This document shows positions 2,059-17,573 of a stretch of 21,110 nucleotides of DNA, one piece after another (positions within the stretch are counted from its first letter, which is position 1; every line of letters starts with the position of its first letter). The stretch is from a virus: the IMG/VR virus record IMGVR_UViG_3300029913_000810, positions 1 through 21,110 of that record. One strand, given 5' to 3'. Both the position numbers and the translations under genes were made by a program. The notes under the pieces are model-generated. The model was not told where the DNA came from and made no database searches. It worked only from the letters and a program-made list of their open reading frames with translations.

Positions 2059-2448
2059 CTAGTCGGTGGATCGCGCAGAAGGCCAAAGCGCATCAAGCAG
2101 ACTGGTATCGATTTCGCCGCTTTCAAATTGTTCGCCAGAGCCGTCCGGGGGGTTACCCGGCCAATCGGCGAAGTCCATCAGCGGACTGTCTAGCGCCAGA
2201 TCAATTGAGTAGAGCAACTCATAATTGCGGCCATACGGCGGGATAGCCTCTATTTCGAGTTCTGCGGATTTTGCGTTGCCCACATTATAGTCAACGGCGC
2301 TATCGTACACCTTCTCGATCCGGCCCACCAACCCCAGGCAACCCTCACGCTTTTTTGCGTAGGCGTCGGCATCGTCGCCTTCGACGACCGACATAGCGGC
2401 GGTGAATTGTTTGAGCTTGTCGTCAGAAATGGCAGTATGAGTATTCAT
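2059..2448 (-). CDS. Acidic hypothetical protein, 129 aa
   Basis: The start is taken as the ATG at 2448; the frame runs further upstream but only through the twin element at 2472-2494. The protein is acidic, with many Asp and Glu residues, especially in the last 60 residues, and no transmembrane segment. I do not recognise a family; small acidic phage proteins of this kind sometimes mimic DNA or bind host factors, but nothing here proves that. The start codon lies inside one arm of the near-palindrome CATACCAATTTGGTATG (2446-2462), so a protein bound there would block translation or transcription start. No Shine-Dalgarno is visible. The overlapping plus-strand frame at 1986-2246 is its shadow. 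Confidence 0.65.
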   Translation of the reverse strand: MNTHTAISDDKLKQFTAAMSVVEGDDADAYAKKREGCLGLVGRIEKVYDSAVDYNVGNAKSAELEIEAIPPYGRNYELLYSIDLALDSPLMDFADWPGNPPDGSGEQFESGEIDTSLLDALWPSARSTD

Positions 2449-2462
2449 ACCAATTTGGTATG
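2446..2462. promoter_or_regulatory. 17-bp palindrome over the start codon
   Basis: CATACCAA, one T, TTGGTATG is a perfect dyad around a central base. It overlaps the ATG of the minus-strand gene at 2448, as an autoregulatory operator would. It is the first of a series of palindromes running to 2755. Confidence 0.5.
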
Positions 2463-2495: not shown

Positions 2496-2522
2496 AGCTA
2501 GTTGCACACTGTGCAACTAGCT
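2496..2522. repeat. Perfect inverted repeat, 12-bp arms, 3-bp spacer
   Basis: AGCTAGTTGCAC at 2496-2507 and GTGCAACTAGCT at 2511-2522 are exact reverse complements around ACT. No T-run follows on either strand, so this is not an intrinsic terminator. It sits in the divergent intergenic region between 2448 (minus) and 2565/2756 (plus). Confidence 0.85.
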
Positions 2523-2564: not shown

Positions 2565-2744
2565 ATGTCACTCCACGATTACTACTTGAGAAAGCCGGAA
2601 CACCTTTCGCCGATATCGGCGAAAGGTGTTCCGGCTTCAGCAAATCTGACGGTCGGACGAAACGGCAAAGTCGTCTATATCGGCGACTCGCCAGCATACA
2701 GCCACTCGCGACTCGCGAATACAAAGACGTTAGCGACTCGCTAG
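2565..2744 (+). CDS. Possible small protein, 59 aa
   Basis: The ATG at 2565 follows a purine-rich stretch with only a weak ribosome site. The middle (residues 28-39, NLTVGRNGKVVYIG) looks protein-like, perhaps a beta hairpin. However the ORF is read straight through the 46-bp palindrome and the 25-bp-spaced repeats, so it may be open by chance. If real it would be a short DNA-associated protein encoded within its own cis elements. No family recognised. Confidence 0.35.
   Translation: MSLHDYYLRKPEHLSPISAKGVPASANLTVGRNGKVVYIGDSPAYSHSRLANTKTLATR
2592..2637. repeat. Perfect 46-bp palindrome with no spacer
   Basis: The left half (2592-2614, beginning AAGCCGGAACACC) is the exact reverse complement of the right half (2615-2637). 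The axis is in the centre of GATATC. The next bases outward (2591 A, 2638 C) break the symmetry. The 10-mer ATATCGGCGA of its right half recurs at 2677-2686 in the first 25-bp repeat. There is no T-run. The size and perfection exceed a typical operator; replication origins and protelomerase sites are known to carry such palindromes, but no protelomerase gene is visible in this window. Confidence 0.95.
2682..2743. repeat. Three palindromic repeats at exact 25-bp spacing
   Basis: The core GCGACTCGC occurs at 2683-2691, 2708-2716 and 2733-2741, an exact 25-bp period. Each core is extended symmetrically by different but complementary bases: G...C (2682-2692), C...G (2707-2717), TA...TA (2731-2743). 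The dyad is therefore conserved where the sequence is not. AT-rich segments of 7-9 bp follow each core. The arrangement resembles iterons or a cooperative operator array, directly upstream of the gene at 2756. Confidence 0.85.
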
Positions 2745-2755
2745 CATTATGCTAG
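2741..2755. repeat. 15-bp inverted repeat abutting a start codon
   Basis: CTAGCAT, T, ATGCTAG is a perfect dyad that ends one base before the ATG at 2756 and overlaps the third 25-bp repeat. It would be well placed as an operator or as an RNA hairpin controlling translation. Confidence 0.7.
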
Positions 2756-3718
2756 ATGTTAGGAATGGCCCGACGATCCACCGTTGCGCAAATCATGACG
2801 AAGGCGCGTAACATTAACCACAAAGCCCTCAGGGGCTTGAGCCTCCACTATCAACATCCTGATTATTCCTGGCAGCAGAAGTTACTCCGCTTAGCCAACG
2901 ATGAACGGCTTACAAAGCGGAAGCTCTGGCCGCGCCTGCCCGATTCGGTTGAGGCGCTACTCCAGCTTTCTTACTTGGATAACGATCAGTTTGATGAGGC
3001 GATGCAAGAGAAAGACGGACACGGCAATTACCTCATAAATAAGAAAACGGAACTGGCGACAGTGAAGGCGCTCCGCAAGTCCATCGAAGAGGGGGAGGAA
3101 TTAGACCTCTCCATTACCGGACCTCCAGTTTTCCTGTTCTGTCAAACGAGAAATGTGGGGAACTGGTTGAAGCGTGCGCAGTACCTATTCTACGAAAATA
3201 AACGGAAGAGCACATACCAAAACGTCTTCAACGGAACAGCTTTTTATCTGACACGGCCTCTAGCCGCGCAGCCAGTGCTTCATGACCTTACCGACAAGCA
3301 AGCGCAACTCATACTGGGCAAGCTGAAAGACGCCAACATAACATTAGATGCAGTAACAGTCGGCAAGAACTTCACGGTATCGGAAGAACCGGGCAAATAC
3401 ATCGATTTTCACTTTTCAAAAGAAACGAGTAAAAACGGCGTCGTGATCCATGAGCATGGGCGTACATACAGAAAATTTATCACCCCTGAACATGCAGAGA
3501 CGGTGCTTTACTACGCGGATGGAAGTCCGGTAAAGGGTGTTGAAGTCGGTTATTATAAGCCGTCGCGGCGTCAGGCAAACCACCTTGGGTCGTTACCCCT
3601 CTGGGAGATGACGGATGTTCTACCCGATGCGATTGTGCGTTACGCGGAGCGGCGAAGATTCTTTCCGAAGCCTGCGGCAGAGGAGCCGTTCCGCTACACG
3701 ACGTCCGCGTCCGCTTAA
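2756..3718 (+). CDS. Protein of unknown function, 320 aa
   Basis: A long frame with coding-like codon use, reading from ATG 2756 (alternatives: ATG 2765 and ATG 2795; none has a good Shine-Dalgarno). The N-terminus is basic, so DNA or RNA binding is possible. A Lys/Arg-rich segment lies near residues 137-152, and a His/Tyr-rich segment (HFSKETS, HEHGRTYRKF) near residues 222-245. I recognise no family and no catalytic motif. It is the only gene placed directly behind the palindrome and 25-bp repeat array. A protein that acts on that array (initiator, resolvase-like or regulator) is therefore a fair hypothesis, but only from position. Its stop codon overlaps that of the convergent AP2 gene. 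Confidence 0.85.
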   Translation: MLGMARRSTVAQIMTKARNINHKALRGLSLHYQHPDYSWQQKLLRLANDERLTKRKLWPRLPDSVEALLQLSYLDNDQFDEAMQEKDGHGNYLINKKTELATVKALRKSIEEGEELDLSITGPPVFLFCQTRNVGNWLKRAQYLFYENKRKSTYQNVFNGTAFYLTRPLAAQPVLHDLTDKQAQLILGKLKDANITLDAVTVGKNFTVSEEPGKYIDFHFSKETSKNGVVIHEHGRTYRKFITPEHAETVLYYADGSPVKGVEVGYYKPSRRQANHLGSLPLWEMTDVLPDAIVRYAERRRFFPKPAAEEPFRYTTSASA

Positions 3719-8144: not shown

Positions 8145-10313
8145 ATGTTTGATGGCGACCGCATTGCTGACGAATTAGATTCCTATATGGCTGAGGCTGA
8201 CGCCGAAGACGCCGCGACTTGGGCGGAGCCACCCGATCCACACTTCACCAACCCCAAATACTTGGGTGCCCTGGTTCTGGCCGAACAGGGTTACCACGTC
8301 ATTCCTTTGAACGACAGTGTGGCTATCCTGAAGGACTGGCCCGCGCTGGCGTCTACCGATCCTGAAGTGATATCCAATTGGTGGCGCGACTTCCCGGAAG
8401 CCAACATCGGCATCGCCACCGGCCACAAGGTGGTGGTGATCGATCAGGACCCGCGCCACGGGGGAGTGGCTAGCTTGGCGAAGCTGGAAGCCCAGTACGG
8501 CAAGCTGCCGGTCACCCTGACTGTGGTAACACCGGGCGGTGGCCGTCACTATTACTTCCAGCAACCCGTAAACTTCAAGATCAAGAACTCCATCGGCGGG
8601 TTGGCTGAAGGCATCGATGTGAAGGGTTACCACGGATATGTGGGCGCTCCACCTTCTGTCCGTGTGGCGACCGGCAAAGTCTATAGTTTTGAGGTGCACC
8701 CTAGCGTTGACTGGACCACGGTGCCCATCGCCCCATTACCGGTGTCGTGGAAGGCGGCGATCAGTAAGGCGAAGGGCCACAACGCCAAGATCAAAGCTTA
8801 TAAGAGGGTGAAGCCGGGTGAAGTCGTTCCTGAAGGGTCTCGCCATGAAGCGATGCTCGGCTACGCGATGGGTCTGCGTAAGATGGGTGGCGACTCGATA
8901 TCCATCTACCGGGACCTGAAAAAGTGGGCTGATGAGCATTGCCCCGGCCATGATGACCGCCACTGTTTCCAGATGTCGGAATCGATGATGAATTACCTCA
9001 CGCTGGATGAACAGGCCGAAGAGCGGAAAGAGAAGGCTAACACCAGCTTCATAACAGCATCCCCTGAAGAGGAAGGGCCCGATCCAGACTACATCGACAA
9101 GCTGGATTGCTCTGAAACGGGTGTTATGAAGACGATTAAGAACGTTCACTGTATCCTCAATACTTCTCCCCAGTGGCATGGCGTGATTTCCTACGATGAC
9201 TTCGCTCATCGCGCCATCGTTATGCGGGATCTTGGCTCCGAACTCTTTACGAAGGGCGCTGAAGTGGAAGACGCCCACGTGACGAAGATCCGGTTAGCGC
9301 TCAATCGCGCGGTTGGTGTTGATTTCGGGACGCCGCTGATCTACGACAGTATGCTCTCCGTCGCCGAAGAGCATCGCTTCCATCCGGTGCGTGATTACCT
9401 GGATAACCTGACATGGGATGGTACGAAACGGGTGGGGAAGTGGCTGAACACTTATATGGGTGCGCCCGACGACGATTACACATCGGCGGTCGGTCAAGCT
9501 TTCCTCATCTCCGCGATAGCGCGGGTCATGAGTCCTGGTTGCGAAGTGGACGGTTGTTTGGTGTTTGAAGGCGATCAAAATCTGGGTAAGAATTCAGCCG
9601 TCAATGCGCTCATGCCGGTGGTGAAATGGCGCGGCGTGTTAGGTGCGGATCTGGCTCGGCCCGATACCAAGCTGGATATCCACGGTACGTGGTTCGTGGA
9701 GCTTCAAGAGATGGTGCACACGAGAAAGGCAGCGGTCGATGAACTGAAGGCGTTCCTGACCGAGACGGCGGATCGGGTACGCTCCCCCTATGGACGCATT
9801 AACAAGCGCTACCCGCGCCAGTCCGTCTTCTTTGGCTCCACGGACAACGATTGCTATCTCAAGGACACAACCGGCAACAGGCGCTTTTGGCCGGTGGCTT
9901 GTAAGCCGGTGGTCACTAACATTGAAGGTTCCTTCACTGATCGTGACGCGCTAGCGCGTGACCGGGACCAGATATGGGCGGAAGCCCGTGACTTGTTCCT
10001 GGCGGGGGTGAGTTGGAAACTGACCGCCGTGGTGAAGGCGCTGGCTAAAGAAGAGGCCGAAGAACGTATGCTGCCCGATACGTGGGACGATACGGTTTCG
10101 GAAATGCTGGAAGGGAAGACGGAGGTTACAATCACCGAGATTCTGGTGCAACTGAATCTTGAGATCGGAAAAACCGGCCATCTGGACGGCACACGTCTCG
10201 CCGACATATTGCGGCGCTTAAAGTGGCGGCGCTTCAAGAAACGGTTAAGCCCGACAAAGAGGGCAATGGTGTGGCGTCCACCCCCTGTTGAGAAGAAGGA
10301 AGGGGCCGTGTAG
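8145..10313 (+). CDS. Prim-Pol primase / VapE-like helicase fusion
   Basis: 722 aa with AAGGAG upstream of ATG 8145. Residues 38-200 match the bifunctional primase-polymerase N-terminal domain: VVIDQDP gives the Asp100/Asp102 metal pair, TPGGGRHYYF (129-138) carries the conserved His135, and GIDVKG (156-161) gives a third acidic residue. Residues 410-600 match the VirE/VapE-type P-loop domain: a Walker A variant EGDQNLGKNS (475-484), Walker B-like WFVELQE (516-522), and GNRRFWPV (577-584), typical of this family. It should prime and unwind DNA at the phage fork for the divergently encoded polymerase. The last 90 residues look like a winged helix (MLEGKTEVTITEILVQLN onwards), often seen at the end of such proteins. 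Confidence 0.95.
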   Translation: MFDGDRIADELDSYMAEADAEDAATWAEPPDPHFTNPKYLGALVLAEQGYHVIPLNDSVAILKDWPALASTDPEVISNWWRDFPEANIGIATGHKVVVIDQDPRHGGVASLAKLEAQYGKLPVTLTVVTPGGGRHYYFQQPVNFKIKNSIGGLAEGIDVKGYHGYVGAPPSVRVATGKVYSFEVHPSVDWTTVPIAPLPVSWKAAISKAKGHNAKIKAYKRVKPGEVVPEGSRHEAMLGYAMGLRKMGGDSISIYRDLKKWADEHCPGHDDRHCFQMSESMMNYLTLDEQAEERKEKANTSFITASPEEEGPDPDYIDKLDCSETGVMKTIKNVHCILNTSPQWHGVISYDDFAHRAIVMRDLGSELFTKGAEVEDAHVTKIRLALNRAVGVDFGTPLIYDSMLSVAEEHRFHPVRDYLDNLTWDGTKRVGKWLNTYMGAPDDDYTSAVGQAFLISAIARVMSPGCEVDGCLVFEGDQNLGKNSAVNALMPVVKWRGVLGADLARPDTKLDIHGTWFVELQEMVHTRKAAVDELKAFLTETADRVRSPYGRINKRYPRQSVFFGSTDNDCYLKDTTGNRRFWPVACKPVVTNIEGSFTDRDALARDRDQIWAEARDLFLAGVSWKLTAVVKALAKEEAEERMLPDTWDDTVSEMLEGKTEVTITEILVQLNLEIGKTGHLDGTRLADILRRLKWRRFKKRLSPTKRAMVWRPPPVEKKEGAV

Positions 10314-10320
10314 CGTCTGA

Positions 10321-10359
10321 GGGGTGGACCGGAAAGCGTGAAGAGGACCGGTCTACCCC
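10321..10359 (+). terminator. Stem-loop 8 bp after the primase-helicase gene
   Basis: GGGGTGGACCGG (10321-10332) pairs with CCGGTCTACCCC (10348-10359) over 12 bp with one G-U pair and a 15-nt loop. The position suggests termination, but the following CTTAGTTA is a poor U-run, so it may instead protect the mRNA 3' end. Confidence 0.5.
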
Positions 10360-10428
10360 CTTAGTTACGATAGGATGGACCGCCCGTCAGTGAAATCGTG
10401 GGTGGTTTTTGTTGGGTTTTGGTGCGGT

Positions 10429-10455
10429 GGGGTGTGGTGGGTGGGTGAAAAGGGG
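10429..10455 (+). other. G-quadruplex motif
   Basis: Four G-runs of 3-4 (10429-10432, 10439-10441, 10443-10445, 10452-10455) are separated by loops of 6, 1 and 6 nt, which satisfies the usual G3+N1-7 rule. The whole 10400-10455 segment is strongly G/T-skewed on the plus strand. Confidence 0.7.
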
Positions 10456-10489
10456 TCAAGGGTCCAGTGGTCCACCGTATATTTGTGTG

Positions 10490-10521
10490 TTGTAAAGGTA
10501 TCAACAGACTTTTTTTATATA
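10490..10521 (+). promoter_or_regulatory. Possible promoter for the methyltransferase transcript
   Basis: TTGTAA (10490-10495) and TATATA (10516-10521) resemble -35 and -10 boxes but with a long spacer (20; 18 if TTTATA at 10514 is used). A T7 tract and AT-rich DNA lie between. Weak evidence. Confidence 0.25.
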
Positions 10522-10523
10522 AG

Positions 10524-10548
10524 CACAGCACAGCACACCACACCACAT
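10524..10548. repeat. CACAN minisatellite, five units
   Basis: The units are CACAG, CACAG, CACAC, CACAC, CACAT. The tract is partly complementary to the G/T-rich segment about 100 bp upstream, so the two could pair in single-stranded DNA or RNA. Confidence 0.8.
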
Positions 10549-10580
10549 CATACGGTGTTCTCCCCCCGGAGGTTACAAAG

Positions 10581-10622
10581 GTGAAAGGTCTACCCGCCCC
10601 GGTGTACCGGGTGGCCCTTTAA
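10581..10622 (+). CDS. Possible 13-aa leader peptide
   Basis: GTG at 10581 follows a strong GGAGG with about 8 nt spacing, and the frame closes at TAA 10620 after MKGLPAPVYRVAL. The coding stretch contains the dyad CCCGGTGTACCGGG (10598-10611), which could fold in the mRNA and be opened by a translating ribosome. The next large gene starts 226 bp later. It may be a regulatory upstream ORF, or the ribosome site may be fortuitous. Confidence 0.35.
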   Translation: MKGLPAPVYRVAL

Positions 10623-10740
10623 GTTTAAAATGGACTATGGCTGAAGAAAAAACCACGGATCAGGCTGGAATTGCCGAACCGTTTTATAGTCCGGCATCCT
10701 GCACCGCTTTCCCCGCCGCCGTTCTCGGAAGTAACGTATC

Positions 10741-10799
10741 TGTGCGAACACTTTCGTCTCAAACTGTTCGCACATTTTGGTATCGAATCTGTGCGAACA
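10741..10799. repeat. Three TGTGCGAACA repeats in alternating orientation
   Basis: Direct copies are at 10741-10750 and 10790-10799, with an inverted copy (TGTTCGCACA) at 10765-10774; starts are 24 and 25 bp apart. All lie 50-110 bp before the methyltransferase ATG. They look like an operator array. A related GTTCGCACA is at 208-216. Confidence 0.75.
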
Positions 10800-10847
10800 T
10801 TTTGATCCCCAGCGATTCCACGCTTCTCAACTTCCCTCGATCTGGTT

Positions 10848-12086
10848 ATGAACCGATTTCATGCCAGTCTAGGCAAAGCGAAAGCAGCCAAGCAGGACGA
10901 GTTCTACACCCAGTACGTCGATATTCAAAAAGAGGTCGAGGCTTACCTCGAATTCGACCCAGACACCTTCCGTAGCAAGATCGTCTACTGCAACTGCGAC
11001 GACCCGTTTGAGAGCAACTTCTTCAAGTATTTCGCCGCCAACTTCAACAGGCTTGGACTCAAGAAACTCATCACCACCAGCTACAACGGATCTCCCGTTG
11101 CTGGTCAGGGCACCTTGTTTCCCGAATACAACGAGGGGAATGGCAAGCGCAAGAAGCCAAAGGCGATTGCCGTCATCGTTGACCATGTGAAGGACGAGGA
11201 CGGCGACGGCGCGGTGAACATAAACGACGTGAAGCTCTTCCTCAACCGCAACAAGGCCGCTCGGGTTGCCTTGAAAGGAGACGATAAGTACGCCGGTGGG
11301 GATTTCCGCAGCGCTGATTGCATCGCGCTTTTGAAACAGTCCGACATCGTCATCACCAACCCGCCCTTCTCCCTATTCCGTGAGTATGTAGCCCAACTCG
11401 CGGAGCACGGCAAGAAGTTCCTGATCATAGCAAACAAGAACGCGATCACGTATAAGGAGATCTTCCCACTCATCAAGGCCAATAAGCTGTGGATGGGCGT
11501 CACCCCAATGGGAACCGATATGCTCTTCGACCTTCCGCCTAAACAAGCGAAGGTCATGCTTGAGTCCGGGAGGAAGGGAAGCAACTACAGGATAGTCAAC
11601 GGCAGGGTCATGGGTCGATCTAGTTCGGTTTGGTTCACCAATTTGGACCATGGTCGCCGACACCCGAAGCTGCCGCTGATGACCATGGAAGACAACCTCC
11701 GGTTCAGCAAGCACAAGGAAATGAACGGCAAGGCGGCATACGACCCGTACGACAATTTCAACGCGATTGAAGTGCCGTTCACCGACGCGATCCCCGGCGA
11801 CTATGACGGCGTCATGGGCGTCCCTATCTCTTTCCTTGATAAGTACAACCCCGCGCAGTTCGAACTTGTCGGCTACGAATACAGTGACGAGTTGCGCACC
11901 AGGACCTACCCGGTGCAAATTCAGGTCGATAAGAAAGGTACGAGGAGCAACGTAACAAAGCTGAACGACGTCTGCGCTCTTCGAGTAGACGTGGCACCAA
12001 TGAGCGGGACGACCTACTACATCGTGAACGGCGAGTATTTCGTCGCACCGTACAAGCGGCTTTTCATCCGCCGCCGCGAACGGTAG
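10848..12086 (+). CDS. EcoRI-type adenine-specific DNA methyltransferase
   Basis: 412 aa. The N-terminus (AKAAKQDEFYTQYVDIQKE, residues 11-29) and the segment VYCNCDDPFESNFFKYF (47-62) are hallmarks of the M.EcoRI family, and NPPF at 171-174 is catalytic motif IV of an N6-adenine methylase. The product would transfer a methyl group from S-adenosylmethionine to adenine in DNA. It is longer than M.EcoRI (about 326 aa). No restriction nuclease is adjacent, so it is an orphan that probably protects phage DNA. At least seven GAATTC sites occur in the window, one inside this gene (10950), so that sequence is not avoided; the true specificity cannot be read from sequence. No Shine-Dalgarno is visible at ATG 10848, but no other start fits. 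Confidence 0.93.
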   Translation: MNRFHASLGKAKAAKQDEFYTQYVDIQKEVEAYLEFDPDTFRSKIVYCNCDDPFESNFFKYFAANFNRLGLKKLITTSYNGSPVAGQGTLFPEYNEGNGKRKKPKAIAVIVDHVKDEDGDGAVNINDVKLFLNRNKAARVALKGDDKYAGGDFRSADCIALLKQSDIVITNPPFSLFREYVAQLAEHGKKFLIIANKNAITYKEIFPLIKANKLWMGVTPMGTDMLFDLPPKQAKVMLESGRKGSNYRIVNGRVMGRSSSVWFTNLDHGRRHPKLPLMTMEDNLRFSKHKEMNGKAAYDPYDNFNAIEVPFTDAIPGDYDGVMGVPISFLDKYNPAQFELVGYEYSDELRTRTYPVQIQVDKKGTRSNVTKLNDVCALRVDVAPMSGTTYYIVNGEYFVAPYKRLFIRRRER

Positions 12087-12314: not shown

Positions 12315-12414
12315 ACTAGCTGAGAAGCGAATCGCGGCGCATGCGGTGACGGTTGCCGCAGCGTACCGGGTCATGCAGACGTTTATCGTAGATCATACGG
12401 CGGTGGTGGCTTAG
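12289..12414 (+). CDS. Tiny ORF, 41 aa, overlapping the DUF2513 gene start
   Basis: A GTG at 12289 opens a frame ending at TAG 12412-12414, whose last G is the first base of the next gene's GTG (TAGTG). It carries the segment RIAAHAVTVAAA, also found at the C-terminus of the tiny ORF at 12789-12905. No Shine-Dalgarno precedes it and it starts inside a hairpin, so the start is uncertain. The stop/start overlap favours real, coupled translation. No family recognised. Confidence 0.4.
   Translation: MARQSNYIALAEKRIAAHAVTVAAAYRVMQTFIVDHTAVVA
12326..12362. repeat. 37-bp direct repeat, copy 1
   Basis: It matches 12865-12901 with one mismatch (G 12351 against A 12890); copies are 539 bp apart. Homology stops abruptly at both ends. 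Both copies lie in small ORFs in the same frame relative to the repeat. Confidence 0.9.
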
Positions 12415-12788: not shown

Positions 12789-12905
12789 ATGCCGGACGGT
12801 TCTTATTGCGTGCTGGATTACATCGGCTTCGAGACGGACGCCGGTTATTACGAGACGGCGTTGGAGCGAATCGCGGCGCATGCGGTGACAGTTGCCGCAG
12901 CTTAG
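12789..12905 (+). CDS. Tiny ORF, 38 aa, with duplicated tail
   Basis: ATG 12789 follows GGGGGTG at good spacing, only 3 bp after the DUF2513 stop codon. The sequence reads like a real protein (MPDGSYCVLDYIGFETDAG then YYETALERIAAHAVTVAAA). Its last 12 residues are shared with the ORF at 12289. It overlaps the HNH gene start by 14 bp, so ribosomes may pass from one to the other. No family recognised. Confidence 0.55.
   Translation: MPDGSYCVLDYIGFETDAGYYETALERIAAHAVTVAAA
12865..12901. repeat. 37-bp direct repeat, copy 2
   Basis: Partner of 12326-12362. This copy contains the presumed TTG start (12892) of the HNH gene. Confidence 0.9.
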
Positions 12906-17107: not shown

Positions 17108-17573
17108 TGGTGGCGGAGCGGTGGCGGAGCGGTGGCGAAGCGGTGGCGAAGCGGTGGCGGAGCGGTGGCGAAGCGGTGGCGAAGCGGTGGCGGAGCGGTG
17201 GCGGAGCGGTGACGCCCTAGCGACCTACGCGCTTTCGCGAAGCCCAACTTCCCACCCGTCTCCAACTAAATCAAACTATCTGTTCCTTGTATTGAGCATC
17301 AGCACGCCATGGCTGGCGCTCTACCTCTACTTGGCCGGTTCCTTCCTGTTTCCGGCCAAGTTCTTTTTGGAGCTTATGGAGCAGAAGAAGACAAGCAAGC
17401 ATCCGCGCTTTTCAACAATCGACTGGTTATTGCTGGTCGGAATAACTGCAATCGTCGGCGGCGTTGCCGGGTTTAACGTCTTCGCTGCGTTGATAGTCCT
17501 GGGCGCTCTATTGCTTCTCACCGCCTACGGCCTTGCAAGGCACCAGCAGCCGGGTAGTGAGGGCAAGGTATGA
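17067..17573 (+). CDS. Small membrane protein with repeat-encoded N-terminus
   Basis: The frame from TTG 17067 encodes 168 aa. Residues 17-49 are three copies of an 11-residue repeat (ERWRSGGEAVA) read from the 11-bp minisatellite. Residues 70-95, 118-136 and 138-156 are hydrophobic and look like membrane helices, with a basic loop (KKTSKHPR) between the first two. The start may be TTG 17292 or ATG 17376 (GGAG just upstream, short spacing), in which case the repeats are untranslated. The stop overlaps the portal ATG (ATGA), which strongly supports the C-terminal part as a real coupled gene. The function is unknown; a membrane protein between terL and portal is unusual and might be a lysis or superinfection-exclusion gene, which is speculation. 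Confidence 0.55.
   Translation: MTARWWSDADRLTAGGGAVAERWRSGGEAVAERWRSGGEAVAERWRSGDALATYALSRSPTSHPSPTKSNYLFLVLSISTPWLALYLYLAGSFLFPAKFFLELMEQKKTSKHPRFSTIDWLLLVGITAIVGGVAGFNVFAALIVLGALLLLTAYGLARHQQPGSEGKV
17109..17207. repeat. 11-bp minisatellite, nine units
   Basis: Nine tandem GGTGGCGRAGC units and a partial tenth. Base R runs G,G,A,A,G,A,A,G,G, a mirror-symmetric order. Three units make 33 bp, so the array stays open in frame in either direction and encodes 11-residue repeats on both strands. Confidence 0.95.

Follow-up and report, generated by a model that had tools for sequence, protein, structure and literature searches.

In the phages lambda and N15, three related operators lie between divergent genes (PMC4488713), and the telomere site of N15 has a palindromic core of 56 bp flanked by repeats (PMC12624138). 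These two systems and the long bidirectional terminator hairpins are the described arrangements closest to the locus reported here, in which a perfect palindrome of 46 bp stands beside three short dyads between two divergent ORFs. Like the lambda/N15-type immunity region (OR1-OR3), the locus places a set of three short, related dyads, here spaced by exactly 25 bp, between divergent genes; unlike that region, it has no recognised CI/Cro homologue and carries the 46-bp palindrome upstream in addition. The telomere resolution sites of N15, PY54 and phiKO2 share with it a long palindrome of similar size and repeats close by (PMC12624138), but here an integrase is found, with no resolvase in the sequenced part and no sequence match to known phages. 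Long bidirectional terminator hairpins also have a long near-perfect stem, and similar-looking stems were seen in the loci L108 and L136; here, however, there is no T-run on either side and no loop spacer, and the genes are divergent, not convergent.

The window, by which we mean the whole stretch of 21,110 nucleotides analysed (IMG/VR record IMGVR_UViG_3300029913_000810), encodes a polymerase, a primase/helicase, a terminase, a portal, a protease, a major head protein and an SSB-like protein. A gene for a 415-aa tyrosine integrase begins at position 21 on the minus strand and lies mostly outside the window; it corresponds to positions 9443-10690 of a second contig (L002, IMGVR_UViG_3300029922_001273, hereafter the sister contig), which extends 2.5 kb further left. 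Since a tyrosine integrase at this edge points to a temperate phage that integrates, the source is apparently an integrating temperate tailed phage. No DNA match to the window was obtained among known phage records, and when 388 genomes from the phylum of a Verrucomicrobia MAG were searched for the integrase, only weak matches came up. The window also encodes an EcoRI-type adenine methylase (10848-12086, Pfam E 1e-115). Next to it no gene for a restriction enzyme was noticed, so the methylase possibly serves as protection against host restriction.

The first-pass annotation had described a perfect 46-bp palindrome without spacer, longer than expected by chance in 21 kb, in a divergent intergenic region, and the analysis agreed with it on all three points. 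Each of the two arms (2592-2614 and 2615-2637) has 23 nt; they are 100% complementary with 0 nt separating them, and on folding, one strand forms a 21-pair stem with an ATAT loop. By our estimate the chance of such a palindrome in the window is about 21,110 x 4^-23, roughly 3e-10. The longest palindrome in 60 first-order Markov simulations of the window with the same dinucleotide make-up did not exceed 20 bp, and the longest perfect spacerless palindrome in 1.78 Mb of other loci was 34 bp. The palindrome occurs once in its own record. The location is divergent and intergenic, since the palindrome lies between a leftward ORF starting at 2448 and a rightward ORF starting at 2756 or 2765, with the caveat that an open frame of 59 codons (2565-2744) passes through it. 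The palindrome is thus real and far above chance expectation.

That it might be an assembly fold-back artefact, a condition which the first-pass annotation had named as refuting, was made unlikely by the sister contig, which comes from a different data set and reads through the same 46 bp, base for base, into the same unique flanks. The two contigs show no difference in at least the first 9.7 kb; across 17.2 kb their identity is 99.88%, the differences being 18 mismatches and two gaps, which indicates that the sister contig is a separate assembly; unique sequence on both sides of the palindrome in two assemblies argues against a fold-back. A third near-identical contig stops short of the palindrome region. 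The proposed search of related phages was successful only in part: the palindrome was found in the sister contig, but no diverged relative carrying it was obtained. Among viral contigs, searches with the exact 34-bp core, the 17-mer arm and a gapped arm pattern returned the sister contig as the only relative with the palindrome. An alignment search with the polymerase yielded distant relatives only (the closest 33% identical), and the palindrome is present in none of them.

The gap between the two ORFs (2449-2755, 307 bp) is rich in dyads in addition to the palindrome (Table 1). The sequence GCGACTCGC is found three times in the window, at 2683, 2708 and 2733, all in this gap, upstream of the rightward ORF and with a period of exactly 25 bp; every copy forms a dyad of its own that extends over 11 or 13 bp. 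None of 100 simulated windows contained a 9-mer triplet as dense as this one. With a period of 25 bp, successive copies fall in different reading frames, so the repeats act at the level of DNA or RNA and not of protein. The link between palindrome and repeat array drawn by the first-pass annotation was confirmed: ATATCGGCGA, present in the palindrome at 2613-2622, recurs 40 bp to its right at 2677-2686, and the chance of sharing any 10-mer with that flank is about 0.004.

Table 1. Coordinates of the features in and around the divergent gap
Feature	Position	Strand	Remarks
Leftward 129-aa ORF	2059..2448	-	Good coding score; no family match
17-bp dyad CATACCAATTTGGTATG	2446..2462	no strand	Overlaps start codon of leftward 129-aa ORF
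Second long dyad, 27 bp	2496..2522	no strand	13-bp arms, 1-bp centre
Open 59-codon frame through palindrome	2565..2744	+	Ends 11 nt upstream of 320-aa ORF
46-bp spacerless perfect palindrome	2592..2637	no strand	Arm comparison, folding, simulations
10-mer ATATCGGCGA	2677..2686	+	Common with palindrome 2613-2622; runs into dyad 1
Operator-like dyad 1, GGCGACTCGCC	2682..2692	no strand	Centre 2687
Operator-like dyad 2, TCGCGACTCGCGA	2706..2718	no strand	Centre 2712
Operator-like dyad 3, TAGCGACTCGCTA	2731..2743	no strand	Centre 2737
15-bp dyad CTAGCATTATGCTAG	2741..2755	no strand	Directly upstream of 320-aa ORF start
Rightward 320-aa orphan ORF	2756..3718 (start 2756 or 2765)	+	No relative found

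We considered that the palindrome most probably belongs to an ordinary class of regulatory sites, here in a phage not studied before, and our preferred, still tentative, reading is that it forms one element of a cis-regulatory DNA region between the two divergent genes. This reading is favoured by the occurrence of palindrome and dyads together in a single divergent gap of 307 bp, by the exact 25-bp spacing of three GCGACTCGC copies confined to this gap, by the 10-mer that joins the palindrome to dyad 1 at a chance of about 0.004, by the tyrosine integrase, which implies a temperate phage, and by the plan of three operators between divergent genes in lambda and N15 (PMC4488713). What the sequence shows directly is the palindrome, the dyads with their spacing, the shared 10-mer, the divergent genes and the integrase; that the dyads are operators, which protein binds them and what the symmetry is for are inferred. 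The three GCGACTCGC dyads are likely to be tandem operators for a dimeric phage repressor controlling the rightward 320-aa gene. The palindrome, with ATATCGGCGA at its centre, is likely to be an upstream site for this repressor or for a protein that cooperates with it, which, when bound there, would help to repress or shape the divergent promoters.

Several observations stand against the operator reading. No repressor gene was recognised, and neither the 129-aa nor the 320-aa ORF gave a match to a DNA-binding family; a simple sigma-70 scan, whose consensus may not be the host's, showed no promoter between 2300 and 2900. Moreover, 46 bp exceeds the need of a dimer operator, the outer 15 bp of each palindrome arm share nothing with the three dyads, and no diverged relative was found to reveal conserved bases. 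Selection on all 46 bases does not follow from the perfect symmetry, as imperfect dyads are known to be made perfect by template switching (PMC7202029); here too, the symmetry may have been completed by template-switch repair of a dyad that was imperfect at first, and not by selection on each base. If the gap is an operator region, it would be the switch of a phage group without a relative among known phages, and it would combine an unusually long perfect dyad with adjoining ordinary operators.

A less likely possibility is that the palindrome acts as RNA, being transcribed as a 21-pair stem either as part of the 320-aa gene's leader or antisense from the leftward operon, where it might be an RNase III site, a stability element or a means of translation control. 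The + strand of 2560-2770 folds with a z-score of -7.55 (0 of 200 shuffles as good), the palindrome forming the long stem, but every perfect palindrome folds in this way, so the z-score is forced and is no test of function. The end of the 59-codon frame 11 nt ahead of the 320-aa ORF also counts in favour of the RNA reading. Against the RNA reading, no Rfam match was obtained and no promoter is mapped. The mean codon score of the 59-codon frame (-0.03) falls slightly short of the 5th percentile for coding stretches (0.035) and ranks within the 75th-95th percentile of non-coding frames; no other evidence speaks for its being coding. A 45% match to this frame in the locus L021 was taken as chance, as it spans 31 residues and no related gene is nearby. 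The palindrome was rejected as an intrinsic terminator: as the first-pass annotation had argued, no T-run follows the stem, and this applies to both strands, which continue with CTTCAGC (+) and CTTTCTC (-), so the canonical form of a terminator is absent; nor was the palindrome listed by a terminator scan.

It is unlikely, though somewhat in keeping with the layout of the gap, that the region is a replication origin in which the three repeats are iterons, the palindrome is a cruciform or nicking site and the 320-aa protein is the initiator. Three equally spaced repeats with a 25-bp period adjoin a long dyad and an orphan gene, and the phage brings genes for a polymerase, an SSB-like protein and a primase/helicase of its own. 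On the other side, there is no AT-rich stretch (2638-2755 is 47% AT), no match to the DnaA-box consensus TTATNCACA and no clear skew turning point, and the 320-aa protein has no match to an initiator family. A region at about 10470-10848 looks more origin-like: this gap after the primase/helicase gene contains an AT-rich stretch and three CTGTGCGAACA-type repeats, one of them inverted, about 25 bp apart, and we regard it as a candidate replication origin. Of the hairpin-origin use suggested in the first-pass annotation, the equally spaced repeats are in agreement, but the AT-rich stretch and DnaA box are wanting and the better candidate lies elsewhere.

A bolder proposal, to which we give little credence, is that the palindrome, the three dyads and the 320-aa protein make up a self-contained system, the protein recognising or processing the palindrome; it is just as improbable that such a system would serve hairpin-based replication initiation or end formation. 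If the orphan protein did act on the palindrome, the two would constitute a module of a new kind for phage replication or end processing, but the evidence favours the ordinary, regulatory case. For the 320-aa ORF no relative was found among families, phages, PDB entries or genomes, and the sister contig was the only viral contig in which it turned up; searches in phages, in bacterial genome contigs and in two genome samples around Planctomycetes/Verrucomicrobia contigs were likewise empty, and these empty searches have little weight, since they had no positive control. A single-sequence structure prediction of the protein gave a pLDDT of 32.

Equally improbable is that the palindrome is the remnant of a mobile element that has lost its interior, so that two 23-bp terminal repeats abut head to head. 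Perfect arms without a spacer would suit such an origin, but the flanks show no target-site duplication, the window holds no second copy, and arms 0-20 bp apart occur among viral contigs only in the sister contig; elsewhere the 17-mer arm was found only in three unrelated viral contigs, without the dyad or a related gene. Slightly less probable still is that the palindrome is attP or another site of recombination by the integrase encoded at the left edge of the window. An attP is expected next to its integrase gene, and here that gene starts 2.6 kb away with other ORFs between, so that the recombination-site use suggested by the first-pass annotation is weak. In addition, a fully symmetric core gives integration by a tyrosine recombinase no orientation, which would apply to this palindrome too. 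Neither the remnant nor the attP reading has positive evidence in its favour.

The gene of a telomere resolvase is normally adjacent to an N15-type target site. The least probable of all the readings, also raised by the first-pass annotation, is that the palindrome is a protelomerase target, cut and sealed into hairpin telomeres of a prophage maintained as a linear plasmid: its size and symmetry resemble N15-type sites, whose palindromes measure about 40-60 bp (46 bp here against the 56 bp of the N15 core), but none of the three records (window, sister contig and third contig) gave a hit to the ResT/TelK catalytic domain (PF16684) at E <= 1, an absence that is not absolute since all three are fragments, no recombinase match was obtained for the 320-aa ORF next to it, and the conventional tyrosine integrase points to integration.

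Some other repeats were observed in the window. An element of the form GGGAAATTCTCA...GAGATTTTT is common to 1866-1888 and 2472-2493, in each case about 24 bp upstream of the start of a leftward ORF, and is a possible promoter or operator. A 68-bp direct repeat (1424-1491 and 1902-1967, 79% identical) lies in a stretch without clear genes, and each copy contains an internal inverted sequence. A 40-bp direct repeat, 95% identical, is located on either side of the DUF2513 ORF (12326-12365 and 12865-12904). Between the terminase and portal genes, an 11-bp tandem repeat, GGTGGCGGAGC, is present in 9.4 copies (17109-17211); the alignments to the two near-identical contigs break and overlap at this place, which suggests that the length of the array differs between them.
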